Origin: a virus
DNA length: 64,000 bases
Strand: one strand, 5' to 3'
Virus record (IMG/VR): IMGVR_UViG_3300030419_007010
Coordinates: 97,728 to 161,727 of that record
The notes under the pieces were generated by a model. It made no database searches and was not told the DNA's origin. It was given only the letters and a program-made list of their open reading frames with translations. Every line of letters starts with the position of its first letter. Position 1 is the first letter of the stretch. Made by a program: the position numbers and the translations under genes. This document shows, in pieces, positions 36,083-57,460 of this stretch.

Positions 36083-38038
36083 CTATAAGCTTTTGAAAGG
36101 AAATTCTACTTTTGCTACTTTTCCTAATGTTTTGTTCCAATTCTCTTTTGAATCTATTAGCCATTGTTTAAGAGCATCTAAGCTGCGTGCTGAAGCTTCT
36201 TGACCAGTTCTTAATCCTTCATTTCGAAGTTCAAAATCTAATTTGTTCTGTGCGGGCGTCCAAAGATTTTTTGCATTTTGTATGGGCTGGTAACCGAGTC
36301 TGTCTCGTGGCGCGTCTTTTTCATCTTCTATAAATTGCATAATATACCATAATTTTCGTTGCTTATATTCATATATTGCCATGGCGAACATTCGCTTGGT
36401 ACTGTACCCTCCAAGAGTTCCTGCCTCATATTGACTTCGAAGATATTGGTCGACATTTGCAAACTCTTGACCTCTCATATGAATCGATATAGCATTAGCT
36501 ATATATTCTAATTCTTTTTTATTTGGATTTCTTCCAATTAATTCATTAAAGGCTTTTTTGATATAAGGTACAGCTTGTCTAGTGTATTTATGCATTTCTC
36601 TTCGCTTAACATGAACAAAGGACATCTTATTGTCAAAAGTTTTAATATGATCTACTGCGGTTGCACTAAAGAACACTGCCTGCATAGGTTCTGCATGGTG
36701 AATCATACCTTTACCTGTATAATCCGATACCCCATCGACGCCGATTGCTCGGAGAGTCTTTGCCCAAGCTTTCATATCATTAGTTTTTTGTTTGGTGTAA
36801 CTTCTTGTAATATTCCATAATATTCCCAAAGGAGTCTTAAAACTGGAGGCTTCGGTAGCTAGCTGTACAGCGGGGCTCATTTTAATTGTTTGTATAGTTC
36901 CGGATTTATTATCTTTAATGCCTAGATGTTTTTTCCATTGTTCTGCAGTAAAATATCCCCATCTATTCCCAGTACCTATTGCATTACTAATACCCAAAGA
37001 CGGATAATCCGGATTCTTTTTTAATGCTTCTTGTGATTTTTGTTTTAGAAAATCCCACGCGTACATTACTGCTTTTGCATGATTTAAATTAAATCCTGGC
37101 TCCTTTATTACGCCTTCTGGATATTTTTCACTAGCTCTCTGTAAAGTTCGTACTGAATCGATTTCAGGATCATAACCTACTTTTTTATGTACTGCATCAA
37201 CGTGCTGTTGAGTAGCATCAAATTGACCTTTGACGGCGTAGCTAGCTACCCATCTTATCATATTACTAAAATAATCTAGACGCGTATAGTGGCTAGCGGC
37301 ATACTTAAAATATTTTTTTATCTCTTCAAATGCATCTTTTAAATTAGGATCTGATACTTGGCTTTCTAAAAAATACTCATCATCTTTTTTACTCAAAAGT
37401 CGTCTTAAATCATCAATAGCATCAAGTTCCTGTTCGACGTGCCCTTTTTGTACTTGTTTTTTAAATTTTCCAAATTCTTCGTACATGTAGGGCGCTTGTT
37501 CAAGATAACTGTCTATCTCTCCGTCCGGAGTTCTCCTAGCCATTCTTTTTGTAAGTTTTTTACCTACAGGTTCAGAAAATAACTTTATTAATTTTTCGTT
37601 TAAGTCTTGCTCTGTGAACTGATCATTATATAAAATTTCTGCTTCTTTTTTTGGCTTTACTATATGAAGAAATTTTCTTTCAGAAGCAAAAGGTATTTTT
37701 CCCTTTTCAAGCTGGGTGAGGATTTCTTCATTAACAGGATAAAAGTAGATTCCCATTGGAGTCTCCCAAGGAGATTTTGGATTGATGCCGACAATATTAA
37801 TATCAGCAAAGTGCATATAATGGGTTGGCTTTTGACCTGACGGAACAGAATACTTTTTAAGATTATCCAACATAGTCGGAAGCTGGATTCCACGTTTTTT
37901 AGCAGCAGTAGCTTCTTCAATATCAGATTCTAATTCTTTTAAGATATTAGAAACACTAGTATTTTTGCTCTCAACAATATTTTCTTTTTCATTGCGAGCG
38001 GATCCAAGAAAATTACGCCATTTATCTTCTAATTTCAT
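36083..38038 (-). CDS. large protein with capsid-targeting-like N-terminus, unknown body
   Basis: 651 residues. It begins MKLEDKWRNFLGSARNE, a variant of the shared N-terminal peptide (aromatic, x-x, aromatic, Leu). The body has a motif THYMHFADINIVGINPKSPW followed by TPMGIYFYPV, which I recall only from uncharacterised marine phage proteins. A central part has many Tyr and Lys residues, and the end reads VEFPFKSL. No enzyme motif was identified. Probably a structural or packaged internal protein, by analogy with its neighbours. Confidence 0.65.
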   Translation of the reverse strand: MKLEDKWRNFLGSARNEKENIVESKNTSVSNILKELESDIEEATAAKKRGIQLPTMLDNLKKYSVPSGQKPTHYMHFADINIVGINPKSPWETPMGIYFYPVNEEILTQLEKGKIPFASERKFLHIVKPKKEAEILYNDQFTEQDLNEKLIKLFSEPVGKKLTKRMARRTPDGEIDSYLEQAPYMYEEFGKFKKQVQKGHVEQELDAIDDLRRLLSKKDDEYFLESQVSDPNLKDAFEEIKKYFKYAASHYTRLDYFSNMIRWVASYAVKGQFDATQQHVDAVHKKVGYDPEIDSVRTLQRASEKYPEGVIKEPGFNLNHAKAVMYAWDFLKQKSQEALKKNPDYPSLGISNAIGTGNRWGYFTAEQWKKHLGIKDNKSGTIQTIKMSPAVQLATEASSFKTPLGILWNITRSYTKQKTNDMKAWAKTLRAIGVDGVSDYTGKGMIHHAEPMQAVFFSATAVDHIKTFDNKMSFVHVKRREMHKYTRQAVPYIKKAFNELIGRNPNKKELEYIANAISIHMRGQEFANVDQYLRSQYEAGTLGGYSTKRMFAMAIYEYKQRKLWYIMQFIEDEKDAPRDRLGYQPIQNAKNLWTPAQNKLDFELRNEGLRTGQEASARSLDALKQWLIDSKENWNKTLGKVAKVEFPFKSL

Positions 38039-38053
38039 GTTATTAAATAGTAA

Positions 38054-38587
38054 TTAAATATCTATATCAGCCAGTATTCGATTAATTTCTTTAATCATTT
38101 TAGTATGTTTAAAAGTCCAACCTTCATATAAGGCACCTTCATGGTCTGGATCTCCTAAAATATTCCCGCTATTCCATAAAGCAACATGAACTAACTCGTG
38201 AATTAAAGAAGTAGAAGCTATTCTTTCATATCTCGTTTTATGAATTTTTATATAAGTTGGGGATAAGGCCAAGCCTTTTGCTTTTCCTCTTTTAATTTTG
38301 CCATCCATAGAATAACCTAACATGCTTTTTTGTTTGTCAGATACCCATTCTATCATTAATTTGTTTAAGGCTTTATGTACTTTTTTGTTTCTGTCTCCAA
38401 ACTCTTCACACCATTTCTTATAAAATAGTTTTATAGCAATAGAGACGTTTTTTGGATGAGGCCATGTATTTTTTTCTTGAATCTGCCATGCACTTTCATA
38501 GTCTGGTATCTTGCTCATCTGGGTTGCTGTGGGAATTCCTGCGCAGCCCGTTATAAAGAAAGACAACAGTAGTACTACTAATCTCAC
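38054..38587 (-). CDS. lipoprotein with HExxH zinc motif
   Basis: 177 residues. Lipoprotein signal RLVVLLLSFFITGCAG (Cys15). STSLIHELVHVALWNSG (about 127-140) is a zincin-type HExxH motif, placed after a KIHKTRYERI helix, as in SprT-like or WSS1-like peptidases. Likely anchored to the inner face of the outer membrane, where it might cleave envelope proteins. Four nt overlap with the 38584 gene. Confidence 0.72.
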   Translation of the reverse strand: MRLVVLLLSFFITGCAGIPTATQMSKIPDYESAWQIQEKNTWPHPKNVSIAIKLFYKKWCEEFGDRNKKVHKALNKLMIEWVSDKQKSMLGYSMDGKIKRGKAKGLALSPTYIKIHKTRYERIASTSLIHELVHVALWNSGNILGDPDHEGALYEGWTFKHTKMIKEINRILADIDI

Positions 38588-39477
38588 GACATAGGTCGCC
38601 TCATTTGCATGTCTTGCTTTTGAATTTGCAGATATACCTTCTTTCTAAACTTGTTTAATTCTTCTTGATTATTTTTTAGTACGTCTGCATAATCCCTTAC
38701 AACACCTGATATCTCTGGATATCTTTCTAAATCAACAGGATTCATCTTTCTAATCACCTGGAGCGCTTTTCTAGCTGAATACTTATCTAGGAGTTGTTCT
38801 GCTGCTTCGTGGGCATACGCGTCGATTTCTCCGTGTCTGGTAAGATATAGTTCTCTTTCGTCAGGTGTATCTTCTTCTGGAGGGTCTTCTCCACATATTT
38901 CACGATATCTATCAGGATCTCCTGCTGGAACTTGTTTTGTATCACATACCATTTCTCGATATGCTTCATAATCAGAAAGGCCTTTTGAACTCGCTTGTTT
39001 TTTTAATTGATAATAGTGGATTAATTCATGATTTAAAGTTGTGGATATTTCCTTTGATAATTCGCGAGGATTCAAATCATCAAAATTAAAATCTTCAGAA
39101 ATAGAACGCAGTTCCAACCATATAACATGTTGTCCGTCTAATTCTTGATAAGGTCCTCTATATTGTCCTCGTAAAATCCAATTATTTGGATATGAACCAA
39201 ATTCATCCGATGGGCTTAAGGCATATACTTCATCACCAGCAGAAACGTTAAAATATATATTTGATACTTTATTAAGTGAATTTTGAAGTGTTTCAGTGGC
39301 AGGAGTTCCCATCATATTATCTAAACCGTCTTCTTTCAAGTCGATATCTTCGGGATTATTTGATTGAGTCCAAAAAGTAGAATCAACAATTGCTTGAAAA
39401 ATAGCGTCTTTTAATTCTGTTTCTAAAGATGTAACTTCATTTACGTACTTCCGCCAGTTTTCAAGTAGGAGTTTCAT
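38584..39477 (-). CDS. capsid-targeting-like peptide plus HExxH metallopeptidase
   Basis: 297 residues. The first 14 residues, MKLLLENWRKYVNE, are a clear member of the shared N-terminal peptide. The body has STTLNHELIHYYQLKKQAS (HExxH near residue 150) and, about 65 residues later, RHGEIDAYAHEAAEQLL, with an acidic residue suited as third zinc ligand. If the tag works like in T4, this protease is packed into the head and injected. Translationally linked to the next gene by a one-base overlap. Confidence 0.78.
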   Translation of the reverse strand: MKLLLENWRKYVNEVTSLETELKDAIFQAIVDSTFWTQSNNPEDIDLKEDGLDNMMGTPATETLQNSLNKVSNIYFNVSAGDEVYALSPSDEFGSYPNNWILRGQYRGPYQELDGQHVIWLELRSISEDFNFDDLNPRELSKEISTTLNHELIHYYQLKKQASSKGLSDYEAYREMVCDTKQVPAGDPDRYREICGEDPPEEDTPDERELYLTRHGEIDAYAHEAAEQLLDKYSARKALQVIRKMNPVDLERYPEISGVVRDYADVLKNNQEELNKFRKKVYLQIQKQDMQMRRPMS

Positions 39478-39941
39478 TAAAATTGCTTCCCTACTACTAA
39501 ATATTCATCACCCTTAAGAAACGAAGGGTCTATACCGGCATTAGTAAGAACATTAAAAACAAAACTACCACAATTCTCAGATCTTTTTTCAGGATGGTCC
39601 ATTCTACAAATAATTCCATCGGGAACATCAACTGTTTGTGACAATTTCATAGTTTTATAAATACCCATTTTAGCAGCTTCTTCTGGAGAGTTTGGAACTG
39701 ACTTTACATTTTGCCAGAACTTCTCGTCTTTCATAATGTCTTTCCAAGTACTTATAACTGGTTCTACAAGCTCGCCGCGGTGGCCCGACATATCTTTCAT
39801 ACTACCATTTGGTAAAACGAAGCCTACGTGGTCCCATTTATTATTCTTAATACCCCAGGCAGACTTCATAAAAAATAATGTATTAGAAACATCTTTATTT
39901 TCATTTAAATACTTTCGCCAGTTTTCAAATAGTATTTTCAT
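39477..39941 (-). CDS. capsid-targeting-like peptide plus permuted papain-like (LRAT/NlpC) domain
   Basis: 154 residues. N-terminus MKILFENWRKYLNE. The body has NKWDHVGFVLPNGSMKDMSGHRG (His near 38) and, about 85 residues later, RSENCGSFVFNVLTNAG (Cys near 122). A His before an Asn-Cys pair is the order of circularly permuted NlpC/P60 enzymes (LRAT, YiiX, YaeF), which act as acyltransferases, amidases or peptidases. The assignment is by motif order only. A candidate injected hydrolase. Confidence 0.65.
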   Translation of the reverse strand: MKILFENWRKYLNENKDVSNTLFFMKSAWGIKNNKWDHVGFVLPNGSMKDMSGHRGELVEPVISTWKDIMKDEKFWQNVKSVPNSPEEAAKMGIYKTMKLSQTVDVPDGIICRMDHPEKRSENCGSFVFNVLTNAGIDPSFLKGDEYLVVGKQF

Positions 39942-40477
39942 GTTGTGCTTCTGTATACTTGTTTAAAAAGTTGTTGTACAGCAGGGTCACCTTTGTAGTG
40001 TAGATCTAAAGCAACTTTTAGCTGATCCAGATCTTTAAGTTTTTCGTCTCTTGGTAAACTTTCGTAAGGCTTAAACAACGCTGGGTTGTCTTTTTTTTGC
40101 CACGAGTTATGCTTCATCCAAACTTCATGGAATTTAGAAGCTAAACTGTTAATATCTTCAGCTGATTTAATTGGCATGCTCTCAACAACTTTTGCATAAT
40201 CAACAGCAGGGCCGCCATTTAATAATTGATTAAGAGATGGCACAATTTTATCTGCAGTCTGATTAATATTCTGATAGGCAACACCATCCTCTATTTTTAT
40301 TCCCTCATAGCCTTTGAGTTGTTCTGCAGTTGGCTTGCCAGGAATTTGTTTAAATTTAGGATCATTTCCTTTTTTTCTTCTATGGTCTTTCAGCCATTGG
40401 GTATGCATTTTATCTGTCATTTGTTTAGCTAATGACTCATTTAGATATTGGCGCCAATTTTCAAATAAGTTTTTCAT
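39938..40477 (-). CDS. capsid-targeting-like peptide plus RyR-like domain
   Basis: 179 residues. N-terminus MKNLFENWRQYLNE. The region ASKFHEVWMKHNSW, then KKDNPALFKPYESLPRDEKLKDLDQ resembles the RyR repeat found in many phage and bacterial proteins (His-x-x-Trp, then L-x-P-Y-x-x-L-x-x-x-E-K). RyR domains are thought to bind ligands or ADP-ribose-like groups, but this is not settled. The fold assignment is from pattern memory and moderate. Confidence 0.6.
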   Translation of the reverse strand: MKNLFENWRQYLNESLAKQMTDKMHTQWLKDHRRKKGNDPKFKQIPGKPTAEQLKGYEGIKIEDGVAYQNINQTADKIVPSLNQLLNGGPAVDYAKVVESMPIKSAEDINSLASKFHEVWMKHNSWQKKDNPALFKPYESLPRDEKLKDLDQLKVALDLHYKGDPAVQQLFKQVYRSTT

Positions 40478-40481
40478 TTAT

Positions 40482-41279
40482 CTATTTTCCTGTTACAAAA
40501 TAATATCCAGCCGCGGCTAATTTATTTCGGTCTGTGATAGGCTTATTATTTGCATCTGTTAAATCTCCTCCTGGAAATGCTGTAATTGGAGATATTAATA
40601 ATTTTCCATCAGATACTTTTCCTATAATCCCAGCAATAAAACTCATATTTTGAGTATCTTTACCTTCACCAGATGTTATAGCTACCCTCTCAATTTGATA
40701 AGCTTTTGAATTAGATTCTGGAGTCCAAATAGGAATTTTCAACAAGTCTTCTCCTTGTTGAGCCAATTTAGCACCTTCTTCAGTTGTAACAATTGCTCCT
40801 TTTTTTTGTTCTCCGGGGATATATTGTTGATTTCGAAATTCTGTTACAGAAGTGTGTTTTTTCATTTTAGCTACTTCTTCGGGAGAAGCTTTTTTTACAT
40901 TTGCAGTACCAACTGGTATTCCGGCCGGCAAATCTAACCATTTAATTCTTGTAGGGTCACTCGTATCATTAGGATTATTTTTAGATACCAATGATATAAT
41001 CGCCTTTTGAAAATCTACGTTCGGTGAAAATTTGGATCCTGGTTGGGAATTTGGACCCTTAACATGTCTTGATTTAATGTGATCAAAATTATCCCTAGTA
41101 CCGATTATATAATAATTTCCAGCAGGAGATATAGTATTTTTATCTGCTTTGACTTTTCCTCTTATATATTTATTTAATTCATTATCTGGATTATCAATAA
41201 TTTGTTGAATTTCTTCAAAAGGAACTTGTCCAACCTCTTCATTTACATATTGGCGCCAGGATTCAAATAAGTTTTTCAT
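40482..41279 (-). CDS. capsid-targeting-like peptide plus possible HIxxRH toxin-like domain
   Basis: 265 residues. N-terminus MKNLFESWRQYVNE. The body has YYIIGTRDNFDHIKSRHVKGP, where HIxxRH after a hydrophobic strand resembles the catalytic His of colicin-E5/barnase-like RNases in polymorphic toxins and MuF effectors. A second half includes KLLISPITAFPGGDL and ends AAGYYFVTGK. Nuclease activity is speculative. Coupled by ATGA overlap to the membrane protein at 41276. Confidence 0.6.
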   Translation of the reverse strand: MKNLFESWRQYVNEEVGQVPFEEIQQIIDNPDNELNKYIRGKVKADKNTISPAGNYYIIGTRDNFDHIKSRHVKGPNSQPGSKFSPNVDFQKAIISLVSKNNPNDTSDPTRIKWLDLPAGIPVGTANVKKASPEEVAKMKKHTSVTEFRNQQYIPGEQKKGAIVTTEEGAKLAQQGEDLLKIPIWTPESNSKAYQIERVAITSGEGKDTQNMSFIAGIIGKVSDGKLLISPITAFPGGDLTDANNKPITDRNKLAAAGYYFVTGK

Positions 41280-41443: not shown

Positions 41444-41445
41444 GT

Positions 41446-42187: not shown

Positions 42188-42205
42188 TCACTTATTTCTC
42201 CTATT

Positions 42206-43111
42206 CTATCGGCCAGACTCGGACAGAGCGTCGTTCCAGAGTCGATAATGTGTATCCCAGGTTGATACCACCTCGCCGCGTACATTTTGAATTTCCACAG
42301 GACCATATTGTTGTATATATCCTTGAGCGAGTGCGTGGTCTTTTGCATCATCTATGTTAGCAAATGGTTCAGAGTATAATTTTGTGGCTCTGTATCTTCC
42401 GTCTGGCGGAGCCCACAAAGTAAATTCACCCATCGTTGGTCGCACATGATAATTTGGCATTTCCTTTAGCGTATTTTGCAGTTCTTCTTGAACAATTTGT
42501 TTTAGCTTTGATTCATCCAATGATCGTACCCAATCGAGCCCGCTACCGGGTTTGATGGCGTCTATATCCGAGCGTCTTTTTTGCCAATTATCTATCCTCG
42601 ATTGATCCCAGTTGCGGGGTTCCCAGGCATAACGGAGGCGGTGGGCCCTTGGTGGGTGTTCTGGGTGGGTACGACCTTCAGGATTTTTTTCATCCTTTTT
42701 TGTTCCTACTTGTCTTAAAAACCTCGCAAGATCGGGGTGCTCGCTCCGGACCTTTTTGAGTATTCTTGTCATTTCATCACTTACAGTGTTAAATTTTCTA
42801 GCTGTGGCGCCCAACTTTTCTTTTCCAAAATTTCTTTTATCTGGTCCTTCTGGCATAGCTGCATGTTCTTTTTCCAGTTCTTTTAACTCTAATGAAAGTT
42901 TTTGAAATTCTTTTATTCTTTCTATTAATCCTGGTTCATTTTCCAAAATATTGTTATACCTTTCTAACTCTTGGCTCTGCTTTTTTAACTTTCGGCCCTG
43001 ACGCCATTTATTAAATTTGTTTTTTATAGTTTCTTCTTTTAACACGCTTTGTAGTTCTTCTTCAATAATTTGTTTTAGTTTTGATTGGGTTAGTTTCATG
43101 TTATTCTTCAT
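42206..43111 (-). CDS. protein with two capsid-targeting-like segments
   Basis: 301 residues. The N-terminal MKLTQSKLKQIIEEELQSVL (after a five-residue start; the first ATG has the SD GGAG) and an internal LDESKLKQIVQEELQNTLKE near residues 205-224 are two copies of the same peptide. Between them is a charged, Arg/Pro-rich helical part; after the second copy is a compact 80-residue part (FTLWAPPDGRYRATKLYSEP). It reads like a fusion of two tagged proteins or a precursor cut in the middle. Confidence 0.7.
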   Translation of the reverse strand: MKNNMKLTQSKLKQIIEEELQSVLKEETIKNKFNKWRQGRKLKKQSQELERYNNILENEPGLIERIKEFQKLSLELKELEKEHAAMPEGPDKRNFGKEKLGATARKFNTVSDEMTRILKKVRSEHPDLARFLRQVGTKKDEKNPEGRTHPEHPPRAHRLRYAWEPRNWDQSRIDNWQKRRSDIDAIKPGSGLDWVRSLDESKLKQIVQEELQNTLKEMPNYHVRPTMGEFTLWAPPDGRYRATKLYSEPFANIDDAKDHALAQGYIQQYGPVEIQNVRGEVVSTWDTHYRLWNDALSESGR

Positions 43112-43448
43112 ATTTTACTCCTCCGGGAAGTGTTTTTGGTAGAGGTCGACCTAGAGTAGATAATATTTCATCTGCAGCTTTCTGATCTGCAGCATCCAAA
43201 ATTTCTTTTAACATCCTAACGGCCTCTTCTAGACCATCGTGAAGGATTTGTTCAGCTAGATCTTCTGCGCCTCGTTCGTAATCTGTAAGAGATCTAGATG
43301 TGCCAAGGTTCTGGACACTCATATTAGTACTCTCCAAAACACTTTCTAGAATATCAAATATTTTTTTAAGAGGATCAGAAGACTCATGTTCTAATACACT
43401 CATTTCTTCTTTTATAATCTGCTTTAGTTGTGATTTAGTTAGTTTCAC
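43101..43448 (-). CDS. small capsid-targeting-like protein
   Basis: 115 residues. It starts MKLTKSQLKQIIKEEMSVLE, nearly identical to the start of the 43445 gene. The rest is acidic and helical (LKKIFDILESVLESTNMSV, GAEDLAEQILHDGLEEAVRMLKEIL, DEILSTLGRPLPK) without an enzyme motif. Overlaps the genes on both sides by 4-11 nt. Confidence 0.7.
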   Translation of the reverse strand: MKLTKSQLKQIIKEEMSVLEHESSDPLKKIFDILESVLESTNMSVQNLGTSRSLTDYERGAEDLAEQILHDGLEEAVRMLKEILDAADQKAADEILSTLGRPLPKTLPGGVKYEE

Positions 43449-43804
43449 GTAAATGCTCCTACGTTTTGTGCCTGATAACCTTTCTTCAGCGCCCAGGCCT
43501 CAACGAAATAATGCGCGATGCCGTTGCGGATCATCGCCTTGGCTGCGTCGGCGGCATCTACTGCGCCGGCGTGATCTGAAAAATTAAATTGCTCAACGTC
43601 ACCATCTGCGAACGTAATCGTTTGACCATTCATCTGTTCAAGCATTTCTTCAAATGTGGTTGTTATCCCACCGATTTTTACAAATGGCCCACCATCGTCT
43701 TCATCATCAATAACGTTATATGTAAAGGTGCCGGCCTGCTCATTCAATACTTTCGCGAGTTCTTCTTTTATAATCTGTTTCAGTTGTGATTTGGTTAGTT
43801 TCAT
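43445..43804 (-). CDS. small capsid-targeting-like protein
   Basis: 119 residues. It starts MKLTKSQLKQIIKEELAKVL. The body is mixed alpha/beta (FTYNVIDDEDDGGPFVKIGG, ITFADGDVEQFNFSDHAGAVDAADAAKAMIRNG, HYFVEAWALKKGYQ). Its second half is notably GC-richer than the first. No family recognised. Overlaps both neighbours by 4 nt. Confidence 0.7.
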   Translation of the reverse strand: MKLTKSQLKQIIKEELAKVLNEQAGTFTYNVIDDEDDGGPFVKIGGITTTFEEMLEQMNGQTITFADGDVEQFNFSDHAGAVDAADAAKAMIRNGIAHYFVEAWALKKGYQAQNVGAFT

Positions 43805-44058
43805 AGTTCAACGTCCTCGATGTCTAATTCTCTCATACTAGATAATACTCTTTGTACCACATCAGTAAGTCTTTCATATTTAGGATCAAAAGCATTGTGG
43901 ATAGATTCATGTTCTTCGTCTGTTAAAGCGGTTGGATGCCAATCTCCATTATACCAAATCATGATTTCTGCTTCGGGATCAAGAGTTTGAGCAGATAAAG
44001 CATGCTCATTTAAAAAATATCTTGGGTCAATACGTTTTTTATTTTTTTTTGATATCAT
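43801..44058 (-). CDS. small protein, unknown
   Basis: 85 residues. It starts MISKKNKKRIDPRYFLNEHA and includes IMIWYNGDWHPTALTDEEHESI and a C-terminal acidic helix. The start KKRIDPRYFLNE resembles processed starts of other phage head-associated small proteins. No enzyme motif. Overlaps the large gene at 44055 by 4 nt. Confidence 0.6.
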   Translation of the reverse strand: MISKKNKKRIDPRYFLNEHALSAQTLDPEAEIMIWYNGDWHPTALTDEEHESIHNAFDPKYERLTDVVQRVLSSMRELDIEDVEL

Positions 44059-46487
44059 TTTAAATATTTTCTCCAGGAATCAAATAAAATCTTATCTGTA
44101 ACTAGTTTATTTTGTTGGTTTTCTTCCATAACACTATCTATCACTCCCATTGTTTCTTCGGGAGTTGGCATGCCGGGTCTCCAACCACTAGGATCTTCTT
44201 GAGCGCCAGAAGCCGGCTTAAATAGTTGTGGCTCTTCTTCCATTGCCAGCTTGCCAAATTTTGCTGCAGCGTCTAGAGTTTGGTCTATAAGTATTTTATA
44301 AACTTCGTTTAAATACCTGTCTAAATACTTTGCAAACTGAATTGTGTCTTTAATTTGATCCAAATCGTCTGTCATTTTTATTTTCATATGGATGGTAGCC
44401 TTTAGGGCGGGACTCGGAGACACTTGAATATCAGGAGATAAAATCTCAACCTCAATATTTTTATATGGTATTGTATCCCAAGCTCTATCTTCTAAAAGCT
44501 TCATTTGTCGATCTTTTTGTTGATCTAGTTGTACGAATAGATCAATTGTTTTACGTAGCCAATCTTTTAAGAAGTCTGTATAGGGGCTACGAATATTCTG
44601 TTCAATTCTCTTTGTATATCTGGAGAGAAATGTTTTTTGTACTATTGACACTGCGCCCTGCTCACGTTGGTGTTGCTCACGAGTATCTTCTAACTTATCG
44701 TAATTTAAAGCTTTTAATAAGCCAGTGAGTGGTAAATCAAATTTAGGAGTGAAAAGATGGATGATACCTTTTTCAAATTTTGTATTTAGATTCTTAAATT
44801 GTTCTAGCTCGTCAAACATTTGCTTTCTAGCGTCATATTTTTCAGATTTTATGTAGCCCATATTTCCTAATTCTTCAATTGCTTTTTCTAAAATCTGAGG
44901 ATGTTTTTTATCGTATTCAGCTATTCTATTAAGAAATACTTTAAATTGGGTTACACCTTCGTGCTCATCGTGGTCTGGTTCAAATCTAACTCTAATAGTT
45001 TCTTCATAATCATTAATTTCTACTTCAACTTCATCAGGATATATACCTAGGTCATCCATCGCATCTTTGAATATATCAGTTAGTTGATCTTCATAATCAG
45101 ATGCCATTGGATTTCCATCGCCTGTATCAATCCATGGAAGGTCTTCCGGAAGATCGATTGATGTATAGGCATTCCAAATCCAGCGATGTCCACCCCAATC
45201 CCGAGGATCTTGAACATCTACATCAATATATTCAAAAGAGTGCTCGTGATCTCTTAGCGCAACTTCGAAATCTTCTGAGTCCGGACCGGCTGGATTTTCA
45301 CCTTCGTGCTCGCGAGCTACATACAAACAATCATGGGCGGCGGATTCGAATATTCTCTGTAGTACCTCTAATACTTCTTCAACATCATTAGGATCTTCTA
45401 TAGTTTCGTCATATTCTTCACCAAAATCTCTCACTAGTGTTTTGACAAGAGTCTGAACGTCTTCTGGTACGTCATCGCCCATTTCCAGATCCCTATTGAG
45501 TGTACTAAGTGTTTTTTCTGGGTTAGATACAGCACCTCCTGCTAACACATACTCCATATTTCTATAAAAATCAGAATGGTCAATATCTTTATTGTCTCTA
45601 TTATTAATATTAATAACGTCTTGATCTAAAACTGTTAGCGCTTGTAAGGAAGCATCATCACTCTTAGGTAAAAATTTACTAATAACATAATAAAAGGATT
45701 TACCTTCGTCTGTATATTTTGTATACCATTCTTCATGACCATCATAGCCCTCTACATTACAATTTCCTCTTGCAATACACCAACTTGTGGCTCCTCGTGC
45801 TCCACCTAGATGGGCTGCAGCCTCAACAGAATATGGACGAGCTAATACAAAATAATCATTTTCAATAAGAACTTCAACATCTTCAAGAGCTTTCATTTTT
45901 TCGCCTCTCTTCTTTTGGCGCTTTGAAAACCCTAGTTCTTTAGTTACAGATATAAGATCATCTAAACTTTTGTAGGAATTGATGTCTTTGTTTTTAATTC
46001 TTTGAATGTTTTTGTGGAACTCTGCAATTTCATCGCCAATTTTTATAGCGTGATTAAAAAGCTCAACAAAGAATTCATCTTGGGGATTAGGCTCGTCTTT
46101 GGCCGGCCACGCGATGTTGACGCCTAGTGGCCCCTTTAACTGCTTATCTAGTTCTGCAGCTAGCTGTTTAGTCATCCACATAAGATACTTATTGTTTTTA
46201 GAGGGATCTAAATTAGCTAGACGGTCTACAAATCGATTAACTTGAGGATATTTTTTCTCTGCGTCCTCTTTACGACCTTCCGCAATAAGGGCTATTTCTT
46301 CTTCAGTTAAAGTATCTTCTTCAGCTAAGAATCCGCCTCGTCGACCAGTTGCTGAATCTGTAGAACTAGCATAACCATCAAATCCAATAGTTTCTCTTTT
46401 GGATTCATATCTAGAACTTTGATGACCAGGGCCCGGGCGTTGATTCTCAGTAAGAAAACTTCTCCATTTATTAACAAAGTCACTCAT
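44055..46487 (-). CDS. large tagged protein with TSWC motif, unknown
   Basis: 810 residues, the longest gene in the window. It begins MSDFVNKWRSFLTENQRPG, the shared peptide, and ends DSWRKYLK, almost the same motif at the C-terminus. The stretch AAHLGGARGATSWCIARGN followed by WYTKYTDEGKSFYYVIS resembles a (S/K)WC(I/T) motif found in phage and bacterial proteins of unknown function. The middle is acidic with a strand-rich DYEETIRVRFEPDHDEHEG region. Probably a packaged internal protein. Confidence 0.65.
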   Translation of the reverse strand: MSDFVNKWRSFLTENQRPGPGHQSSRYESKRETIGFDGYASSTDSATGRRGGFLAEEDTLTEEEIALIAEGRKEDAEKKYPQVNRFVDRLANLDPSKNNKYLMWMTKQLAAELDKQLKGPLGVNIAWPAKDEPNPQDEFFVELFNHAIKIGDEIAEFHKNIQRIKNKDINSYKSLDDLISVTKELGFSKRQKKRGEKMKALEDVEVLIENDYFVLARPYSVEAAAHLGGARGATSWCIARGNCNVEGYDGHEEWYTKYTDEGKSFYYVISKFLPKSDDASLQALTVLDQDVININNRDNKDIDHSDFYRNMEYVLAGGAVSNPEKTLSTLNRDLEMGDDVPEDVQTLVKTLVRDFGEEYDETIEDPNDVEEVLEVLQRIFESAAHDCLYVAREHEGENPAGPDSEDFEVALRDHEHSFEYIDVDVQDPRDWGGHRWIWNAYTSIDLPEDLPWIDTGDGNPMASDYEDQLTDIFKDAMDDLGIYPDEVEVEINDYEETIRVRFEPDHDEHEGVTQFKVFLNRIAEYDKKHPQILEKAIEELGNMGYIKSEKYDARKQMFDELEQFKNLNTKFEKGIIHLFTPKFDLPLTGLLKALNYDKLEDTREQHQREQGAVSIVQKTFLSRYTKRIEQNIRSPYTDFLKDWLRKTIDLFVQLDQQKDRQMKLLEDRAWDTIPYKNIEVEILSPDIQVSPSPALKATIHMKIKMTDDLDQIKDTIQFAKYLDRYLNEVYKILIDQTLDAAAKFGKLAMEEEPQLFKPASGAQEDPSGWRPGMPTPEETMGVIDSVMEENQQNKLVTDKILFDSWRKYLK

Positions 46488-46937: not shown

Positions 46938-47289
46938 TGGTGGAGGTGCCGGGAGTCGAACCCGGGTCCAGAATACATCAAATAGTTTGTCATTCACAAG
47001 GTTAGTTCATTTTATATTTTTTTTAAAGGTCTTCTTCAAAAACAAACAAAATAATTTGACCAATGAAGTATACCGCTAAGTATACAATGCTAAAAATATT
47101 TAAAGAGGCGCTAGCAATCCTCTGTCGCTACTTTGGTTAAGAAGGTAGTTAGCGAACCCCCTTATGCTGCGAGAGCATAATTTGCAACATTATCGTTGGC
47201 AATTATAGTTTCAGCGTTTTAACAGAGCCACGCTGCCCTCTGCCTTGCACAAAATATTATACTTACCCTGTCGATACCAGTTCACCCCC
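46938..47289 (-). ncRNA. ssrA: tmRNA (ssrA)
   Basis: On the minus strand the 5' end GGGGGTGAACTGGTATCGAC pairs with the 3' end CACCTCC-A-CCA to form a 7-bp acceptor stem (one G-U), and the T-arm CCGGGTTCGACTCCCGG precedes it; CCA is encoded. The resume region (47200-47162) codes for ANDNVANYALAA followed by TAA, a normal proteolysis tag ending ALAA; with the tRNA-borne Ala it is AANDNVANYALAA. Length is 352 nt, in the usual range. tmRNA rescues stalled ribosomes and tags the products for ClpXP. Confidence 0.95.
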
Positions 47290-47969: not shown

Positions 47970-48034
47970 ATGATCTTAACAAATTCGAATATTCATGCTA
48001 CAATCTAAACACTAGCTTAACTAGCAATTAGTTG

Positions 48035-50777: not shown

Positions 50778-50788
50778 TTAATTTCTCC

Positions 50789-51001: not shown

Positions 51002-51019
51002 AATAAATCTCCTTTTGAT

Positions 51020-51244: not shown

Positions 51245-52357
51245 TTACTTAATCCACTTTTTCATAAGAGCATCATAAAGTCGCTCTTCTTTAAGTTGTT
51301 CGAAGGTTTTTTTCTCGCCTCTCGCATGCCCGGATCCAGGATATGTCTCTCCGGGAAATTTCCCGCCGACGTCACGTACCGGCGCGGGTTCCTTTCTCCG
51401 CCCACCATGTTTCCTCATGCAGTCTTCGTGCGCTCCGAGCAACATGCCGGTGCTTATTTGCTCATGATTCGGGTCGTCTTTAACGGCCTGCTGCAGCTGG
51501 TTCCATGTGTCCGCACATGGATCCGAATCTTCTTCCAATTCTTCGGCCTCTTCCAAGGGCTTTTGACGATCGGCCGGCTTATCCTTGCCTCTACGATCCT
51601 CTGAATTGCCTCTACGGCGCTCCTCAAGGCTTTCCTCTTCCTCGACGACCTCTTCCCCTTCGGAGACGTCTTCCTCTTCTTCTAGCGGCTGTACACGGTC
51701 TGGCTCTTTCTCCTCCGCGCGCCGGCCGGGTCGCCTACGTCGTTCTTCAAGCTCTTCGCTTTCAGCTAGCCGTGTTTCTTGAGCCCATTCTTCGTGTGAT
51801 TGTCCGGAATGGACTTCATCACATTGTGTTGGCTCGTGTGTATGCACGGTTAAACCAGAAGCAGAGCCTTCCATTAATTTTGCTTTCAAAGCTTCTCTGA
51901 TTGCTTTTCTTAATGTTTGTTCATTCATTGTTTTTTTCCTTGATTTGGATTTGATTCCATCTTCCCAATCTCTTATAAGTAGATTTCCTTCTAAATAAGC
52001 TTCTTTCTCCATCATTCTTAAATGTTCGTCTTTTTGTGCGTAACCTTCTTCTGTTACATGATCTCCTTCAAATTCACCTCTACAATTCTGATTATGATGA
52101 ACTAATTCGTGAGAAAAAGATCTTAATATGTCCTTTGGATGTCTCTTATCAATATAAATAGATATCTCATTTGCATTTGGATCATAATAAGCTGTTTTTC
52201 CTAAAGGATTCGAAGCATTATGAGGATCTGAAACAAAAGAAAGCGCCACTGGCCTGTTAAAACCAAGGCGCTTTTGTGCATAGGGAAAAAATTTATTTAC
52301 TAACTCATGTACTTCTTGCAAACTCTCATTTGTCTTATTTGTTATTTTTAAGCTCAT
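51245..52357 (-). CDS. HExxH metallopeptidase fused to charged, tag-like C-terminal part
   Basis: 370 residues. Residues 1-142 are a zincin: ILRSFSHELVHHNQNCRGEF (near residue 85) and HLRMMEKEAYLEGNLLI as likely third-ligand helix. At residue 144 a second Met opens MNEQTLRKAIREALKAKLME, like the shared KLKQII peptide, with its own SD (AAGGA at 8 nt; ATG at 51928), so a second product of 226 residues may be made. The rest is extremely charged (Glu/Arg repeats) and encoded by GC-rich sequence, ending YDALMKKWIK. Confidence 0.72.
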   Translation of the reverse strand: MSLKITNKTNESLQEVHELVNKFFPYAQKRLGFNRPVALSFVSDPHNASNPLGKTAYYDPNANEISIYIDKRHPKDILRSFSHELVHHNQNCRGEFEGDHVTEEGYAQKDEHLRMMEKEAYLEGNLLIRDWEDGIKSKSRKKTMNEQTLRKAIREALKAKLMEGSASGLTVHTHEPTQCDEVHSGQSHEEWAQETRLAESEELEERRRRPGRRAEEKEPDRVQPLEEEEDVSEGEEVVEEEESLEERRRGNSEDRRGKDKPADRQKPLEEAEELEEDSDPCADTWNQLQQAVKDDPNHEQISTGMLLGAHEDCMRKHGGRRKEPAPVRDVGGKFPGETYPGSGHARGEKKTFEQLKEERLYDALMKKWIK

Positions 52358-53300
52358 TTTTAATAAGTCTTTTTAACTTTTCCTCTGATAGAGTAATTGT
52401 TTCTTCTAGTTGGCCGGCCACCGTGGACTTTGTACCAATAGTTCCCTTTTTATATCCCCCTAAACCACCGGTCGGGGCTTTTGTAGCACGAGCTTTCTCA
52501 ACACCGCCTCTAGGTTTACGATCTTTAGCTAAACCAACAGGTGTTTCTGGATCGGTTGCTGACATTGCAACATCACCGATTTCACCAGCTTCTGGAGCAG
52601 CAGAAGGATCAATTGCTACAGACAACTCCTTTAGTTTGCCTCCAGTGCCACCAACACCAGCTAATTCGGATAATTTATCCATATAACCGTTATGTATACT
52701 AATCCAATTAACTAATTCTGCAGCTGCTCTATACACAGCATCTGCCGTTTCACCTGTAGCTACAGCTTCTGTTACGGGTTTTCCTTCTGCGTCTTCCATA
52801 CCTTCAGGAGGCCCGGTGACGACATCATCTTCGTTATCAGGTTGTAGGCCCTGGGCTCTTAATTCGGGCTCATCTTCTACAGATAACATATCTGCCAAAC
52901 GATTAAGAGAAGTGGGATCAATAGCTACCGCTTTAAGCTTAGTTTGTAATTTATCATTTGCCTGTCTAACTTTAATTTCATATTCAGCAAAAACATCTGC
53001 TAACTGAGCCATGGTAGGGGCAACCCTTTTTAAAGCTTTTTGTCCCGCAACTTCTTTTTGTTCCGGCGATGCTTCTTCTGCAGTATCAAGCGCGGCATCA
53101 AGCATTCGATTAGCCTTCGAAGCTTTTGCGAGAGTGATCCATTTTCTTAGTCCTGTTTTTGCACCAAGCTTAATTGATTGGAACACATCAGCAATATCTT
53201 CTTCAAGCATTCTTATGTGTTCTTCAGAGAGAACTTCTTTGCTTTCTTCTAATATAACTTCTTCTACAAGCTTTTTTAGCTGCGCTTTAGTTAGTTTCAT
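52335..53300 (-). CDS. capsid-targeting-like protein, scaffold-like, tag at both ends
   Basis: 321 residues. It begins MKLTKAQLKKLVEEVILEES and ends ITLSEEKLKRLIKNELKNNK, two versions of the shared peptide. The interior is helical and Ala-rich (ASKANRMLDAALDTAEEASP, VRQANDKLQTKLKAVA), with a Gly/Thr-rich linker near the end. This layout fits an internal core or scaffold protein. Overlaps the metallopeptidase gene by 23 nt. Confidence 0.65.
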   Translation of the reverse strand: MKLTKAQLKKLVEEVILEESKEVLSEEHIRMLEEDIADVFQSIKLGAKTGLRKWITLAKASKANRMLDAALDTAEEASPEQKEVAGQKALKRVAPTMAQLADVFAEYEIKVRQANDKLQTKLKAVAIDPTSLNRLADMLSVEDEPELRAQGLQPDNEDDVVTGPPEGMEDAEGKPVTEAVATGETADAVYRAAAELVNWISIHNGYMDKLSELAGVGGTGGKLKELSVAIDPSAAPEAGEIGDVAMSATDPETPVGLAKDRKPRGGVEKARATKAPTGGLGGYKKGTIGTKSTVAGQLEETITLSEEKLKRLIKNELKNNK

Positions 53301-53494: not shown

Positions 53495-54484
53495 TTATTC
53501 GGCTGGTGGAGCCGATTTTGAACGCTTAAAAGGCGGTTTTTTGCTAAAAGGTGCCTTATTTCCTTGCTTTCCGAGTGAAATTGTCTGTTTTTTAGCTTCT
53601 TCGTGGTCTTTTTTGACCAATTCTTGGTATTTTCCCGCTTCTTCAAGCGAAAAATCGGCTTTTTCTTGCGTTTTTTTGTTATTTTCAACGAATTTACGCC
53701 AATTTTTGCTAAATTCTTCCTTTAAAGACATCATTGCGTCATAAGAATCGGTAAAAAGGTCAGATAATCGCTGCAAATAGCCATTTCGACGCAAAACTTT
53801 GAATGCTAGGTTCTCTTCAGAGAAGATTCCACCCTTTTGAAGCCCACATCTTCTGAATTTTCTTATCTTTTCCTTGATTTTCTTCGAGAAATCATGAGAA
53901 TCATCGTATTTTTGGTGATTAAACAGCTTTTCGACCCCATCAATGAGGCTCATGAGCTTCGAAGCCTTCTTTTTAACGTCCATATAGTTAATTTCAGGCT
54001 CATTGTGAAGCGGTTCTGCTACCCATTGGTTATTTAACACCGAATAAACACCCATAGATATATGAGGTTCTTTAGAATCCTGTATATATATCTCCACTTC
54101 ATACCCGTGAATTAGGATATTGTGTTTCTTATTCCAATTTATAATCTTTTCTTTGAATAAATCTTGCAATAATTCGGTATTTTCATGAATTTTTTCGAAA
54201 TCAAGCAAGATATGAAGGTCAACATCCGAAAAACTAGACCAATTATAGCTTGCAAGCGAACCAGTAAGCAAAATATCGTCCAAAATTACTTCTTTATTGA
54301 ATAAATCAGATAAACCTAGGTCATCAAAGAACTTATTTGATATTTCTAACAGCTTTTCGCGGACTTCAGGGTCCATTAACTTGTTTTGCCATATTTCAGG
54401 CGCTAGATCATCCTGCATTTCGAGATTTGTTACGTCAATCTCTCTATGATCATCTAAAAATTCTTGCCAAAGTTGCAAATTCAT
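53495..54484 (-). CDS. Pol-beta-like nucleotidyltransferase with tag-like segments
   Basis: 329 residues. The Pol-beta-superfamily site is DDILLTGSLASYNWSSFSDVDLHILL (GS...SDxD) near residues 66-91. Such minimal nucleotidyltransferases add NMPs to proteins, nucleic acids or small molecules. The N-terminus MNLQLWQEFLDDHRE resembles the shared peptide, and an internal EEFSKNWRKFVENNKK near residue 260 is a close copy of the W-R type, followed by a basic Lys/Ser-rich tail. Target unknown. Confidence 0.75.
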   Translation of the reverse strand: MNLQLWQEFLDDHREIDVTNLEMQDDLAPEIWQNKLMDPEVREKLLEISNKFFDDLGLSDLFNKEVILDDILLTGSLASYNWSSFSDVDLHILLDFEKIHENTELLQDLFKEKIINWNKKHNILIHGYEVEIYIQDSKEPHISMGVYSVLNNQWVAEPLHNEPEINYMDVKKKASKLMSLIDGVEKLFNHQKYDDSHDFSKKIKEKIRKFRRCGLQKGGIFSEENLAFKVLRRNGYLQRLSDLFTDSYDAMMSLKEEFSKNWRKFVENNKKTQEKADFSLEEAGKYQELVKKDHEEAKKQTISLGKQGNKAPFSKKPPFKRSKSAPPAE

Positions 54485-54495
54485 ACAATAATTAC

Positions 54496-56421
54496 TTACT
54501 TACAAGCGTTTTCGTCAATAATTTCCATTAAACTATTATAAACAGTTAACATATCGTCTGTTAATTCATACCACTTGCCTGAAGAAGCGGTACATAGAGG
54601 TTCCCATCCTGAATGATAGTTACCATTTTCCTTATGCCAATCTTTTGAGAACACATATATCTTTGTATTAACAGTGTTTGATATCAATTGTAACAAATGA
54701 TCTTGTTCAATTTTAGGATCTAGGTAAGATTGAGGGACTTCATCTGAAAATAATATAATAACTCTCTCTACACTTGAGTCAGTACGCCAATTAACTTTGA
54801 AATTTAATAATTCTGGGTTAGATTGACCAACGCCTTTCATTGTATTCCAAGCTAAGTCCGCTAATTTGATTGGTAAGACAGCAGAGGAGACCAAATTATG
54901 CATCGCGAGATATAACGCATCATGAAGCATCTCCCGCGCGCCTGACATAGAGTATGAGTTGATGTTTAATTGAGCCATACCGGCCAAGAAATCGGTGAAT
55001 CCTGACAAGTTATGATGCAATTTAAGGTATTCTGCGTATGGACCACTAAAACCCTCTAGAGGGCCCAAAATAATGCCCCATTGAAGTACTTCTTCATCAC
55101 TATACTGGCCGGCAAATTTGTTGAGAGCAGTCATAACAGCAATAATCTCTGTATCCATAGAACCAGACCAGTCAACAATGAATAGAATATCAACTGGTTG
55201 CATTTCTTCACCAGAATCAGTTATACCATCACAATCATCATCAACGCCATTGCAGACTTCTTCTTGAGGGGTTATCTCATCTTTACAGAACCCTGGAGTG
55301 AAATACTGCGGTTCTTCTGGCATATCAACCCAATAGTTCCCCCAAACACCTTCTAAACAAGTTAACATGCCCGGTTCGCATATACCTACATATAAAGTGG
55401 CCGGATCTGCGGAATAACATTGCGCATATAGGTCTTCATCGATCAATTGATTGCAATTATCATCGAAATTGTTGCATTCTTCCGCTTCCAAAGGCATGCC
55501 CACCGTCGGATCGCATATTTCGTCTGGATCTGGGAAATAAACGCACGGTGCAACACAATCTGTCGTATAAATCTCCGTACAATTAGGATCTGCGCACTCA
55601 CACGTCTTATATCCTTGGCCACAAAGCAATGGCGACTCATTACACGGGAATAATGCCCCAACGTGGTCTATAGTACACTCACATTTAAGCTCTTCGTCGA
55701 TTTGACCGTCACAATCGTTATCAAAACCATCACAGATTTCAATTTGGACCGGAGGAGCGTTACAAGAGACCCAATTACCTGCAATACAGTATTCTATACC
55801 GACTCCGCATGCTGTTGAACACTCTTGAATGAGATCTTCATCAATATCACCGTCACAATCATTGTCAAAGCCATCGCAGACGTCTTCTGGTACAAAACCA
55901 CACTCCCCACATGCGTTTAATTGGCCTTCGTCGATAAATCCATCACAATCATTGTCCTCATAGTCGCATATTTCTTCGGAACAGATCGTTTCACAGTCTG
56001 TAAACTTAATTTTGCCTTTATCGCATACTTGGTCTTGCGTTCCTGGAAATCCATCGATTGTTATGCACTCAATTGTTCCCATATTATAGTTTGTTGGATC
56101 ACATTCCAAAAATTCTTCACATTCTCCGACTTCCAAAACCTTCGGAGGGTCAAGACATATATCTTTTACAATCTTCATACGCCAATTGGCATTTAGATCA
56201 CAAAAATACCACTCTTCACGAATACATTTCTTCCGATACTCTTCAGGAGTCATCAACTCCATAATAAGAGGGTTTGGAATTGATATCGGATATAAACTTA
56301 TAGGAGGGGCTTCATCTGGAGTATCATTACAAGAAACTACTGTCGAGAGCACCAATAATAAAACGGCGCCGTATACCAACGACATTTTTAAAATATTATA
56401 TAATTTCTTGAGTATTTTCAT
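54496..56421 (-). CDS. MopE-repeat and VWA-domain lipoprotein
   Basis: 641 residues from the ATG at 56421, one base after the upstream stop. Lipoprotein signal VLLLVLSTVVSCNDTPDEAP. Five MopE-type metal-binding repeats follow (CDYEDNDCDGFIDEG, CDGFDNDCDGDIDED, CDGFDNDCDGQIDEE, CNNFDDNCNQLIDED, CNGVDDDCDGITDSG), then a VWA domain with the MIDAS motif VDILFIVDWSGSMDTE near residue 412. Such proteins are common on the surface of myxobacteria and relatives, not in phages. Probably exported to the outer membrane, calcium-dependent adhesion. Possible host-derived gene. Confidence 0.88.
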   Translation of the reverse strand: MKILKKLYNILKMSLVYGAVLLLVLSTVVSCNDTPDEAPPISLYPISIPNPLIMELMTPEEYRKKCIREEWYFCDLNANWRMKIVKDICLDPPKVLEVGECEEFLECDPTNYNMGTIECITIDGFPGTQDQVCDKGKIKFTDCETICSEEICDYEDNDCDGFIDEGQLNACGECGFVPEDVCDGFDNDCDGDIDEDLIQECSTACGVGIEYCIAGNWVSCNAPPVQIEICDGFDNDCDGQIDEELKCECTIDHVGALFPCNESPLLCGQGYKTCECADPNCTEIYTTDCVAPCVYFPDPDEICDPTVGMPLEAEECNNFDDNCNQLIDEDLYAQCYSADPATLYVGICEPGMLTCLEGVWGNYWVDMPEEPQYFTPGFCKDEITPQEEVCNGVDDDCDGITDSGEEMQPVDILFIVDWSGSMDTEIIAVMTALNKFAGQYSDEEVLQWGIILGPLEGFSGPYAEYLKLHHNLSGFTDFLAGMAQLNINSYSMSGAREMLHDALYLAMHNLVSSAVLPIKLADLAWNTMKGVGQSNPELLNFKVNWRTDSSVERVIILFSDEVPQSYLDPKIEQDHLLQLISNTVNTKIYVFSKDWHKENGNYHSGWEPLCTASSGKWYELTDDMLTVYNSLMEIIDENACK

Positions 56422-56422
56422 A

Positions 56423-56716
56423 TTAATCGATTGGACCAAAAAGATCATCGAAGTTAAAGAAAAATTTATCAGTATCTCTTATATTAACTTCTTCCATTGT
56501 ATTCCAAAGTTTAGCCAACGTCCTTCCAGCTTCTATATCTGTATCAAAGTGTTTTTTTAAAAAATGTTTATCTTCTACCAAAACTGCAAAATATGCACGA
56601 ATCTTCCATTTGAATTTATTTGTTAATTCAACACATCCAACTGGATCATCATTATTCTTTCCAACAATCCGAACTTCCGTGGTTGTATGAGAAAGCTTCT
56701 TCCAACTTATTTTCAT
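56423..56716 (-). CDS. small protein, unknown
   Basis: 97 residues: KISWKKLSHTTTEVRIVGKN, VGCVELTNKFKWKIRAYFAVLV, then FDTDIEAGRTLAKLWNTMEEV. A strand-rich first half and helical second half. No family known. Similar short proteins occur in marine phage genomes as I recall them. Confidence 0.6.
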   Translation of the reverse strand: MKISWKKLSHTTTEVRIVGKNNDDPVGCVELTNKFKWKIRAYFAVLVEDKHFLKKHFDTDIEAGRTLAKLWNTMEEVNIRDTDKFFFNFDDLFGPID

Positions 56717-56919
56717 TCAAGGAAACTCTCGTTTATATGATTACATTCGCTACATTTAAATAACTGTATTGGTGCCATTATTTCTTCTCCTGTCGGAGAA
56801 ATTACTGGGGATATTCTTTTTATTCTATAAATTTGTACAAAATACTTGCTTTTGCACTCATCGCATTCAACATCGCCGGCATCGCGCAAGTTGAAGCTAA
56901 CATTACCTTGTTGTTGCAT
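56713..56919 (-). CDS. small zinc-ribbon protein
   Basis: 68 residues with two Cys pairs: VECDECKSKYFVQIYRIKRI and LFKCSECNHINESFLE (CxxC...CxxC), a likely zinc ribbon. Between them are strands (ISPVISPTGEEIMAPI). Probably binds nucleic acid or protein. Overlaps the next gene by 4 nt. Confidence 0.7.
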   Translation of the reverse strand: MQQQGNVSFNLRDAGDVECDECKSKYFVQIYRIKRISPVISPTGEEIMAPIQLFKCSECNHINESFLE

Positions 56920-56998
56920 CTTAACCTCTATTAGTAATTAATCATCAAAAATTTAAATTCTTGAATAATTTTATTTTATCACACTTTAAGCGCGAGGT

Positions 56999-57460
56999 TC
57001 AGAACCACACGACAGTTTTGAATTGAATTAACTTTCCGAAAAAATTTTCTATTATTTTTTTATCATTTTCTTTGCAAACACCGTCAGCGCCGAGGATAAT
57101 TTTTGTATTTTGGCCAATATTCTTCGGTTTGGCCTTACCGACGTTTTCCCATGTCTCGTCATCGTCTTTATACTTAATATAACCAACCGGCAGCAAATTT
57201 TTCTGTTTTCCGGACGATGAAGGCACGATAATCAGGTCCCAGCCCATGTCATCAGCAGGATTAATGAGTTTTGGCCACTCTCCATAATCAAACTCAAGTT
57301 TGACCTTTTTCAAACCGCCGAATTTTTTCGTTTTTCCTTTTGGAGTGTCGATATTGATTTCTTGATTCGGATTTGCGCGAATAATATCAATTAGTTCTTT
57401 TTGTGTTGGAATTACCTGTTCGATCAAAAATTTTTCCCAACTTTCCAATATTTTTTTCAT
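56999..57460 (-). CDS. capsid-targeting-like protein, unknown body
   Basis: 153 residues. It starts MKKILESWEKFLIEQ, the shared peptide. The body is alpha/beta with GYIKYKDDDETWENVGKAK and KIILGADGVCKENDKKIIENFFG; no catalytic motif is certain. It overlaps the membrane protein at 57457 by 4 nt. It is the last tagged gene on this side. Confidence 0.6.
   Translation of the reverse strand: MKKILESWEKFLIEQVIPTQKELIDIIRANPNQEINIDTPKGKTKKFGGLKKVKLEFDYGEWPKLINPADDMGWDLIIVPSSSGKQKNLLPVGYIKYKDDDETWENVGKAKPKNIGQNTKIILGADGVCKENDKKIIENFFGKLIQFKTVVWF

Follow-up and report, generated by a model that had tools for sequence, protein, structure and literature searches.

Why should a dozen unrelated proteins, encoded in a single block of a viral genome, carry the same few short peptides at their N-termini? 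This question is raised by a 64,000-nucleotide stretch of DNA (hereafter the window), which represents bases 97728-161727 of the 161,727-base virus record IMGVR_UViG_3300030419_007010. A first-pass annotation of the window had noticed that many genes between 36083 and 57460 begin with one of two peptides, a W-R type and a KLKQII type, and had proposed that they encode cargo packed in the phage head and injected on infection. Our analysis indicates that these peptides are very probably leaders that target proteins to the prohead core and are cleaved by a gp21-type protease, borne by a large set of interchangeable cargo proteins as a variant of the internal-protein system of phage T4.

The whole-record tests took in 155 predicted proteins; start codons are predicted throughout, and almost every gene lies on the minus strand. 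We defined the strict W-R motif as aromatic-x-x-[FY]-[LIV]-x-E, sought it within the first 22 residues, and used 5000 shuffles of the same N-termini as controls. All seven W-R N-termini reported earlier were located on the minus strand and six fit the strict motif, but the protein at 36083-38038 lacks the Glu. The postulated enrichment over background was borne out, with seven of the 155 proteins matching genome-wide, six of them in the block, against a shuffled mean of 0.27 and maximum of 3; none of the 5000 shuffles reached seven. The remaining match (record 107065-107757) is likely due to chance. Counting two degenerate copies (36083-38038 and 53495-54484), the window contains eight W-R leaders, of which six close with the gp21 site [LI]-x-E (two of these with V at P3). 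For comparison we used related loci in public viral contigs, numbered with an L; many of these contigs are fragments, and scans of them give lower bounds. The orthologue of 36083-38038 in L090 is 78% identical, begins MTFHNNWQKFLQE and contains NNWQKFLQE, and the L115 homologue of 53495-54484 has the standard leader MKLLLENWREYLDE.

The second leader follows the consensus M-K-[IL]-T-K-x-x-L-K-Q-I-I-K-E-E and stands at the start of nine of the record's proteins, against a shuffled mean of 0.19 and a maximum of 3. The block accounts for four of these, the genes for which this start had been claimed; a row of four adjacent genes is at record 54023-55397, and the ninth lies beside the scaffold gene. 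Since KLKQII starts occur outside the block, at 54023-55397 and next to the scaffold and gp21 genes, the leader set is larger than the block; its presence at 36-57 kb was correctly recognized, but it is not limited to that region. The extra copies described inside and at the ends of proteins are also real (DESKLKQIVQEEL internal, KILFDSWRKYLK and KLKRLIKNELKNNK terminal). Among the matches listed, L-[KR]-Q-I-I-K-E-E is N-terminal in 145 of 159. It is followed by a second conserved block, V-L-x-E, where [LIVM]-x-E stands at one offset in 59 of 150 cases, compared with at most 19 at other downstream offsets and background beyond. The W-R and KLKQII leaders therefore end in the same kind of site, and I-K-E/E inside the first KLKQII block may be an alternative cut site (here and below, a slash marks the cut or predicted cut).

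Three further observations concern leaders of this kind. Outside the window, at record 37396-38914, two genes lie between the protease and capsid genes: one, directly adjoining the gp21 protease gene, begins MGITREQLEQIIREE if the longer start is used and has an internal second copy, MNITKEELARIIKEE, and the other begins MKKNELKQVLKPLIKECIKE and was found in 22 fetched loci. The two might be core proteins that are mimicked or bound by the leaders. The 360-kb record behind L292 (G066), a random control that encodes an S77 protease, shows a start of the KLKQII type at 150695, 111 bases after the protease gene, and the leader may thus reach jumbo phages. A possible third leader type, FRRMQKLAGIITE (and RMKELAGL), was seen in L383, in L376-L379 and at 111675-112139 of the Flavobacterium phage vB_FspM_immuto on various bodies, some of these leaders ending in [IL]-x-E.

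Table 1 Leader-bearing block of the window and the leader copies within it (window positions).
Feature	Position	Strand	Peptide	Protein and remarks
Block	36083..57460	minus		12 leader-bearing genes among 27 predicted
Degenerate W-R leader, no Glu	38003..38038	minus	MKLEDKWRNFLG	36083-38038, 651 aa
W-R leader	39436..39477	minus	MKLLLENWRKYVNE	38584-39477, 297 aa; weak metallopeptidase hint; L090 orthologue with same leader
W-R leader	39900..39941	minus	MKILFENWRKYLNE	39477-39941, 154 aa; leader-bearing orthologues in L042 and L109
W-R leader	40436..40477	minus	MKNLFENWRQYLNE	39938-40477, 179 aa; L107 orthologue begins MKLLFENWRQYIDE
W-R leader	41238..41279	minus	MKNLFESWRQYVNE	40482-41279, 265 aa
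Internal KLKQIV copy	42455..42508	minus	DESKLKQIVQEEL	Position 202 of 301 aa, protein 42206-43111 (same gene as leader 43034..43099)
KLKQII leader	43034..43099	minus	MKLTQSKLKQIIEEELQSVLKE	42206-43099
KLKQII leader	43383..43448	minus	MKLTKSQLKQIIKEEMSVLEHE	43101-43448
KLKQII leader	43739..43804	minus	MKLTKSQLKQIIKEELAKVLNE	43445-43804
C-terminal leader copy	44058..44093	minus	KILFDSWRKYLK	Last 12 aa of the 810-aa protein; 11-aa match to L009 leader
W-R leader	46446..46487	minus	MSDFVNKWRSFLTE	44055-46487, 810 aa; body homologous to L009 family (W-R leader)
KLKQII-like leader	53238..53300	minus	MKLTKAQLKKLVEEVILEE	52335-53300; second copy KLKRLIKNELKNNK at its end
Degenerate W-R leader, Asp for Glu	54449..54484	minus	MNLQLWQEFLDD	53495-54484, 329 aa; nucleotidyltransferase-like, Pfam E 0.003
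W-R leader	57419..57460	minus	MKKILESWEKFLIE	56999-57460, 153 aa

To follow the W-R leader beyond this record, we used the DNA pattern E-x-W-R-[KQ]-Y-x-N-E, into which no start codon was built, and obtained at least 118 stretches in viral contigs. Among the matches listed, 109 of 125 viral ones stand at a gene start, and nearly all of these read MKLL[LFM]ENWR[KQ]Y[LIV]NE. The same pattern gave 33 matches in 257 Gb of bacterial and archaeal genomes, mostly deep in proteins. Three of the 33 lie close to a potential start codon, M-K-L-L is seen in none, and none is a leader. Single linkage of 170 distinct W-R genes, relaxed matches included, gave at least 91 clusters of unrelated bodies that open with leaders of the MKLLLENWRKYLNE type. 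When one protein per body cluster was aligned, MKLLxENWRxYLNE was common to all and nothing after it, conservation dropping to background directly past the Glu. In a relaxed search that fixed only W..[FY] near the start, 148 of 170 matches have an aliphatic residue at W+4 and 138 have Glu at W+6; 15 exceptions are a single unrelated family (WETYSKLVLQQLE), and others have one inserted residue yet keep [LI]-x-E (WRRYLLTE, WRGYILKE). The Pfam domains found in W-R bodies comprise AAA_33/zeta-toxin-like kinase, GNAT, NUDIX, SET, HNH, RNase_T-type exonuclease, protein kinase and 2H-phosphodiesterase-like domains, each confined to one or two members. No match to cultured phages was obtained by tblastn with the bare leaders, which are too short as queries, and a search of the available literature found no paper naming these peptides.

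The record encodes a T4-type head, as judged from its genes. The gp21-like protease that the packaging proposal calls for is present (Peptidase S77, gp21 family, record 38917-39549, E 9e-33) and is surrounded by gp17-, gp20- (portal), gp22- (scaffold) and gp23-like genes; for gp23 and gp21 the assignment is borne out by their similarity to proteins of annotated phages. The gp23-like propeptide of the record itself ends QLLKE/AS, a cut predicted from sequence, and relatives keep [LIV]-x-E/[AS]. The contigs of at least 90 kb with an N-terminal W-R peptide number 22; an S77 protease was found in 16 of them, a gp23-type capsid protein in 14 and an HK97-type protease in none, and for those of at least 130 kb, the S77 protease is found in all 13. 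Every one of 14 T4-type records has the start pattern M-K-x-Phi-Phi-E-x-W, in 1 to 11 copies; nine control records have no copy, and the reversed pattern never occurs. Because thirteen of the T4-type records are relatives picked for carrying the leader, it is the number of copies and the absence from the controls that are informative. In the records behind L375, L380 and L384, the gp23-type matches are split into frames of about 110 residues, which is possibly due to stop-codon reassignment or decay.

The association of leader and head type can also be read within a single protein family. Since a control of random contigs was too short to decide the matter, we compared a P-loop kinase family instead. 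The kinase body of L223, which follows a KLKQII leader, is 64% identical over 211 residues to that of L061, which follows a W-R leader, and the alignment starts where the leaders end. A scan for this body found at least 27 contigs in which it carries W-R leaders, KLKQII leaders, other N-termini or bare starts, such as MKKIF or MKRKML immediately ahead of the P-loop. The S77 protease was detected in 10 of 14 leader-bearing kinase contigs and in 0 of 13 others, one of them incomplete (Fisher p 1.5e-4), and in eight of those ten a distance of 95-502 bases separates the leader-kinase gene from that of the protease. A nucleotidase body likewise occurs under differing leaders, namely the W-R leader ...YLTE/SEEEIYPFQIYCDLDG in L068, ...DLLLE/ESDFMPKYQIYCDMDG in immuto, ...HLVQE/QDSLPTIYCDMDG in HTVC008M and MKSIVEVTSINE/EELPELYCDMD in Melnitz. 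Under each of the four, [LIV]-x-E stands directly ahead of the body.

The resemblance to the T4 capsid-targeting sequence (CTS), which the annotation had pointed out, holds for the W-R type at the level of individual residues: aligned on the Glu, W8, Y11, L12 and E14 fall on Y4, F7, I8 and E10. In T4, residues 4 and 7 of the CTS serve targeting and residues 8 and 10 cleavage, and Asp at position 10 stops cleavage but not targeting; gp21 is specific for L/I-x-E, and targeting of IPIII needs the first ten residues only (PMC9026906). The corresponding T4 sequences are FGSFLTE/A at the gp23 junction and MKTYQEFIAE/A for the IPII and IPIII leader. As here, the T4 internal proteins IPI, IPII and IPIII are small, unrelated proteins with one N-terminal leader ending in [LI]-x-E before the gp21 cut and sharing the aromatic-x-x-aromatic-aliphatic-x-E core, in a phage with an S77 protease and a gp23-type capsid. 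However, the W-R leader has 14 residues with an additional M-K-Phi-Phi-Phi-E-x and has W-R in place of Y-Q, a second and unrelated leader type exists, and the bodies are often larger and enzyme-like. The KLKQII peptide does not match the targeting and processing positions of the CTS and is a different peptide. Ip1-3 of T4 each block a different GmrSD enzyme and have only the leader in common (PMC12373910), and by analogy they may be a natural model for the roles of the small bodies.

Other phages offer partial parallels. The ADP-ribosyltransferase Alt of T4 is packaged in the head, injected, and cut by gp21 at its N and C termini (PMC9026906); the protein at 44055-46487, with leader-like peptides at both ends, parallels it in arrangement rather than in any recognised sequence relation. 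The same 810-residue protein is homologous to EST35_0205 of the Pseudomonas phage PA5oct (27% over 230 residues, E 1e-11), which is annotated in its record as a structural protein identified by electrospray tandem mass spectrometry (ESI-MS/MS) and encoded between a terminase-like gene and another protein detected by mass spectrometry. EST35_0205 starts MKLFEVFTLYE/DKA, with F4, F7 and L-x-E, a leader that is T4-like and not of the W-R type, and PA5oct is a jumbo phage. This annotation, from a distant phage and at the level of a record entry, is the sole experimental sign of a virion location. The closest annotated cultured phage in head type is vB_FspM_immuto (MW353175), with 47% identity over 89% for gp21 and 47% for gp23. 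Although immuto has no exact W-R leader, it shows MKKSQLRQIIKEAL-, MADNFNLRSFLTE- and MKKVMGNLADLLLE-type starts, the last of which precedes the nucleotidase body also seen under a W-R leader. In the giant phages phiKZ and SPN3US, the ejection proteins are large cargo of the head that a relative of gp21 cleaves after x-x-E (PMC5694885, PMC9026906), but their propeptides mostly span about 80-130 residues and their cargo includes RNA polymerase. Polyvalent proteins of phages and conjugative elements (PMC5512222) carry similarly diverse, effector-like domains proposed to act in phage-host conflict; these are fused in one long chain, whereas here there is mostly one body per gene with a common tag.

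Taken together, the proposal that the block encodes packed cargo is strongly supported, with injection its more conjectural part, and we infer from the sequences that such proteins would be packaged, cleaved and then injected by this phage. The hydrophobic and aromatic face of the leader (W8 and Y11, or an amphipathic L-K-x-I-I helix) would bind the assembling scaffold core and thereby carry the attached protein into the prohead. The gp21-family protease would cut after [LIV]-x-E at the leader end, as predicted for the gp23-like LLKE/A; both the sites and the protease are present. The cut would free the body, with release around the DNA, injection and effector roles to follow. The leader is an exchangeable module, as one body is seen with either type, or with neither where gp21 was not detected. 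Packaging without a cut, or with a cut elsewhere, would be expected for 53495-54484 and 36083-38038, which have D or G at the cut position.

The evidence should be weighed against other explanations. It is unlikely that the leaders bind the prohead core while the proteins themselves serve in assembly or as parts of the scaffold, acting in the head and then largely being removed from it instead of being injected as effectors. KLKQII-type proteins fit this picture, being often about 110 residues long, acidic, motif-repeating and encoded beside gp21 and the scaffold, and the T4 core proteins gp67, gp68 and gp22 are indeed cut up and cleared (PMC9026906). However, a scaffold role is implausible for W-R bodies with kinase, NUDIX, GNAT, SET, HNH, exonuclease-type and protein-kinase domains, and these bodies differ between phages. 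We regard it as improbable that the leader is a tag for localisation or interaction inside the cell, for example with the membrane, host RNA polymerase or a phage replication compartment, and has no packaging role. A short amphipathic N-terminal peptide on unrelated proteins would presumably look alike, but this leader has the gp21 motif at its end and no conservation past the Glu, matches the mapped CTS residues and co-occurs with T4-type heads, and leader genes lie in the head cluster beside gp21. The common 5' ends might also be a DNA-level feature, that is, a sequence for recombination or for enhanced translation that spreads with cassettes and has no function in the protein. ATGAAACTCCTACTTGAAAATTGG is identical in several genes, and leader-leader recombination therefore probably occurs; we nevertheless rejected this explanation, now very improbable, because synonymous codons vary (six codons for Arg9, many for L3 and L12) while the residues are kept, and orthologues hold the peptide despite diverged DNA. 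Chance or a biased reading of common N-terminal sequence has a practically negligible probability: short motifs can arise randomly, as the match at record 107065-107757 appears to have done, but the explanation is refuted by the shuffles (0/5000) and by the cellular genomes, which gave no leader against 109 N-terminal matches of the 125 viral ones listed.

Several observations weigh against packaging by prohead-core leaders. The Glu is missing from two of the eight W-R leaders in the window, and some KLKQII genes have no [LIV]-x-E at the second block. The gp21 protease was found in 4 of 50 random contigs, a weak control of mostly short contigs, and the kinase contigs are partly near-duplicates, so that collapsing them gives 8/11 against 0/7 (p 0.004). 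Many bodies are acidic, unlike the basic T4 internal proteins, and the isoelectric points of the bodies range from 4.2 to 9.3; targeting does not depend on a basic body, as foreign proteins are packaged when fused to the CTS (PMC9026906). Leader genes also have no nearby T4-type late promoter: TATAAATA had eight matches in the window against 9.3 expected, is not in excess on either strand, and has no match ahead of a leader gene.

The bodies are unrelated to each other, as had been stated, with no mutual match (best E 0.036). The fold labels assigned to them fared worse and should be dropped. Pfam hints for a metallopeptidase stay below threshold (E 0.02-0.03), and the proteins labelled LRAT/NlpC, RyR-like and HIxxRH have no Pfam match. 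A structural model of 39477-39941 reached a moderate predicted local distance difference test score (pLDDT) of 69, with residues 1-14 at low confidence and the body folded from residue 17. The LRAT/NlpC fold is unsupported because this model matches no PDB fold; a single BFVD match lies inside a 1028-residue phage protein. The single-sequence model of 40482-41279 was unusable (pLDDT 31), and no relatives of this body were found in viral contigs. Pfam and PHROGs gave no homology of the bodies to T4 internal proteins; no direct comparison with IPI, IPII and IPIII was made.

Injected proteins act ahead of any phage gene expression and are the hardest phage proteins to find. To our knowledge, few are known by function (T4 IPI-III against GmrSD, and Alt). 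On balance we lean, with moderate confidence, towards a general tag system in a divergent and widespread T4-like lineage, in which at least two (probably three or more) unrelated and interchangeable leaders would load the head with at least 100 different proteins, including many enzymes, and gain of a leader would turn a free domain into an injected effector. With a recognisable leader, many 'hypothetical' genes become a testable list of first-strike proteins that can be read from sequence alone. The kinase family would be a natural experiment on a free enzyme becoming cargo, and the leaders would add new capsid-loading tags to the single T4 tag used in delivery work.

The surroundings of the leader genes have features of their own. 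Leaderless genes are interspersed in the block, including lipoprotein-like, glutaredoxin and thioesterase-like genes and a transfer-messenger RNA (tmRNA) with the tag ANDNVANYALAA (46938-47289, minus strand), and a tRNA-Thr lies at the block edge (35670-35742, minus strand). At 60150-64000 the G+C content rises from about 0.36 to 0.51, and GC skew is absent; this segment codes for a sigma-70-like factor (60159-61058, minus strand) and short open reading frames, has no match in phage records, and is possibly a chimeric contig end or a segment of other origin. A large glycan cluster at 451-25200 comprises, by inspection, about 25 genes of sugar-nucleotide, aminotransferase, epimerase and glycosyltransferase type, and immuto has a similar one. 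The lipoprotein-like protein at 54496-56448 (minus strand, 650 residues), which contains a vWA-like region and several repeats of the MopE-like motif CDGxDNDCDG, is kept in several relatives and may hint at the host group.

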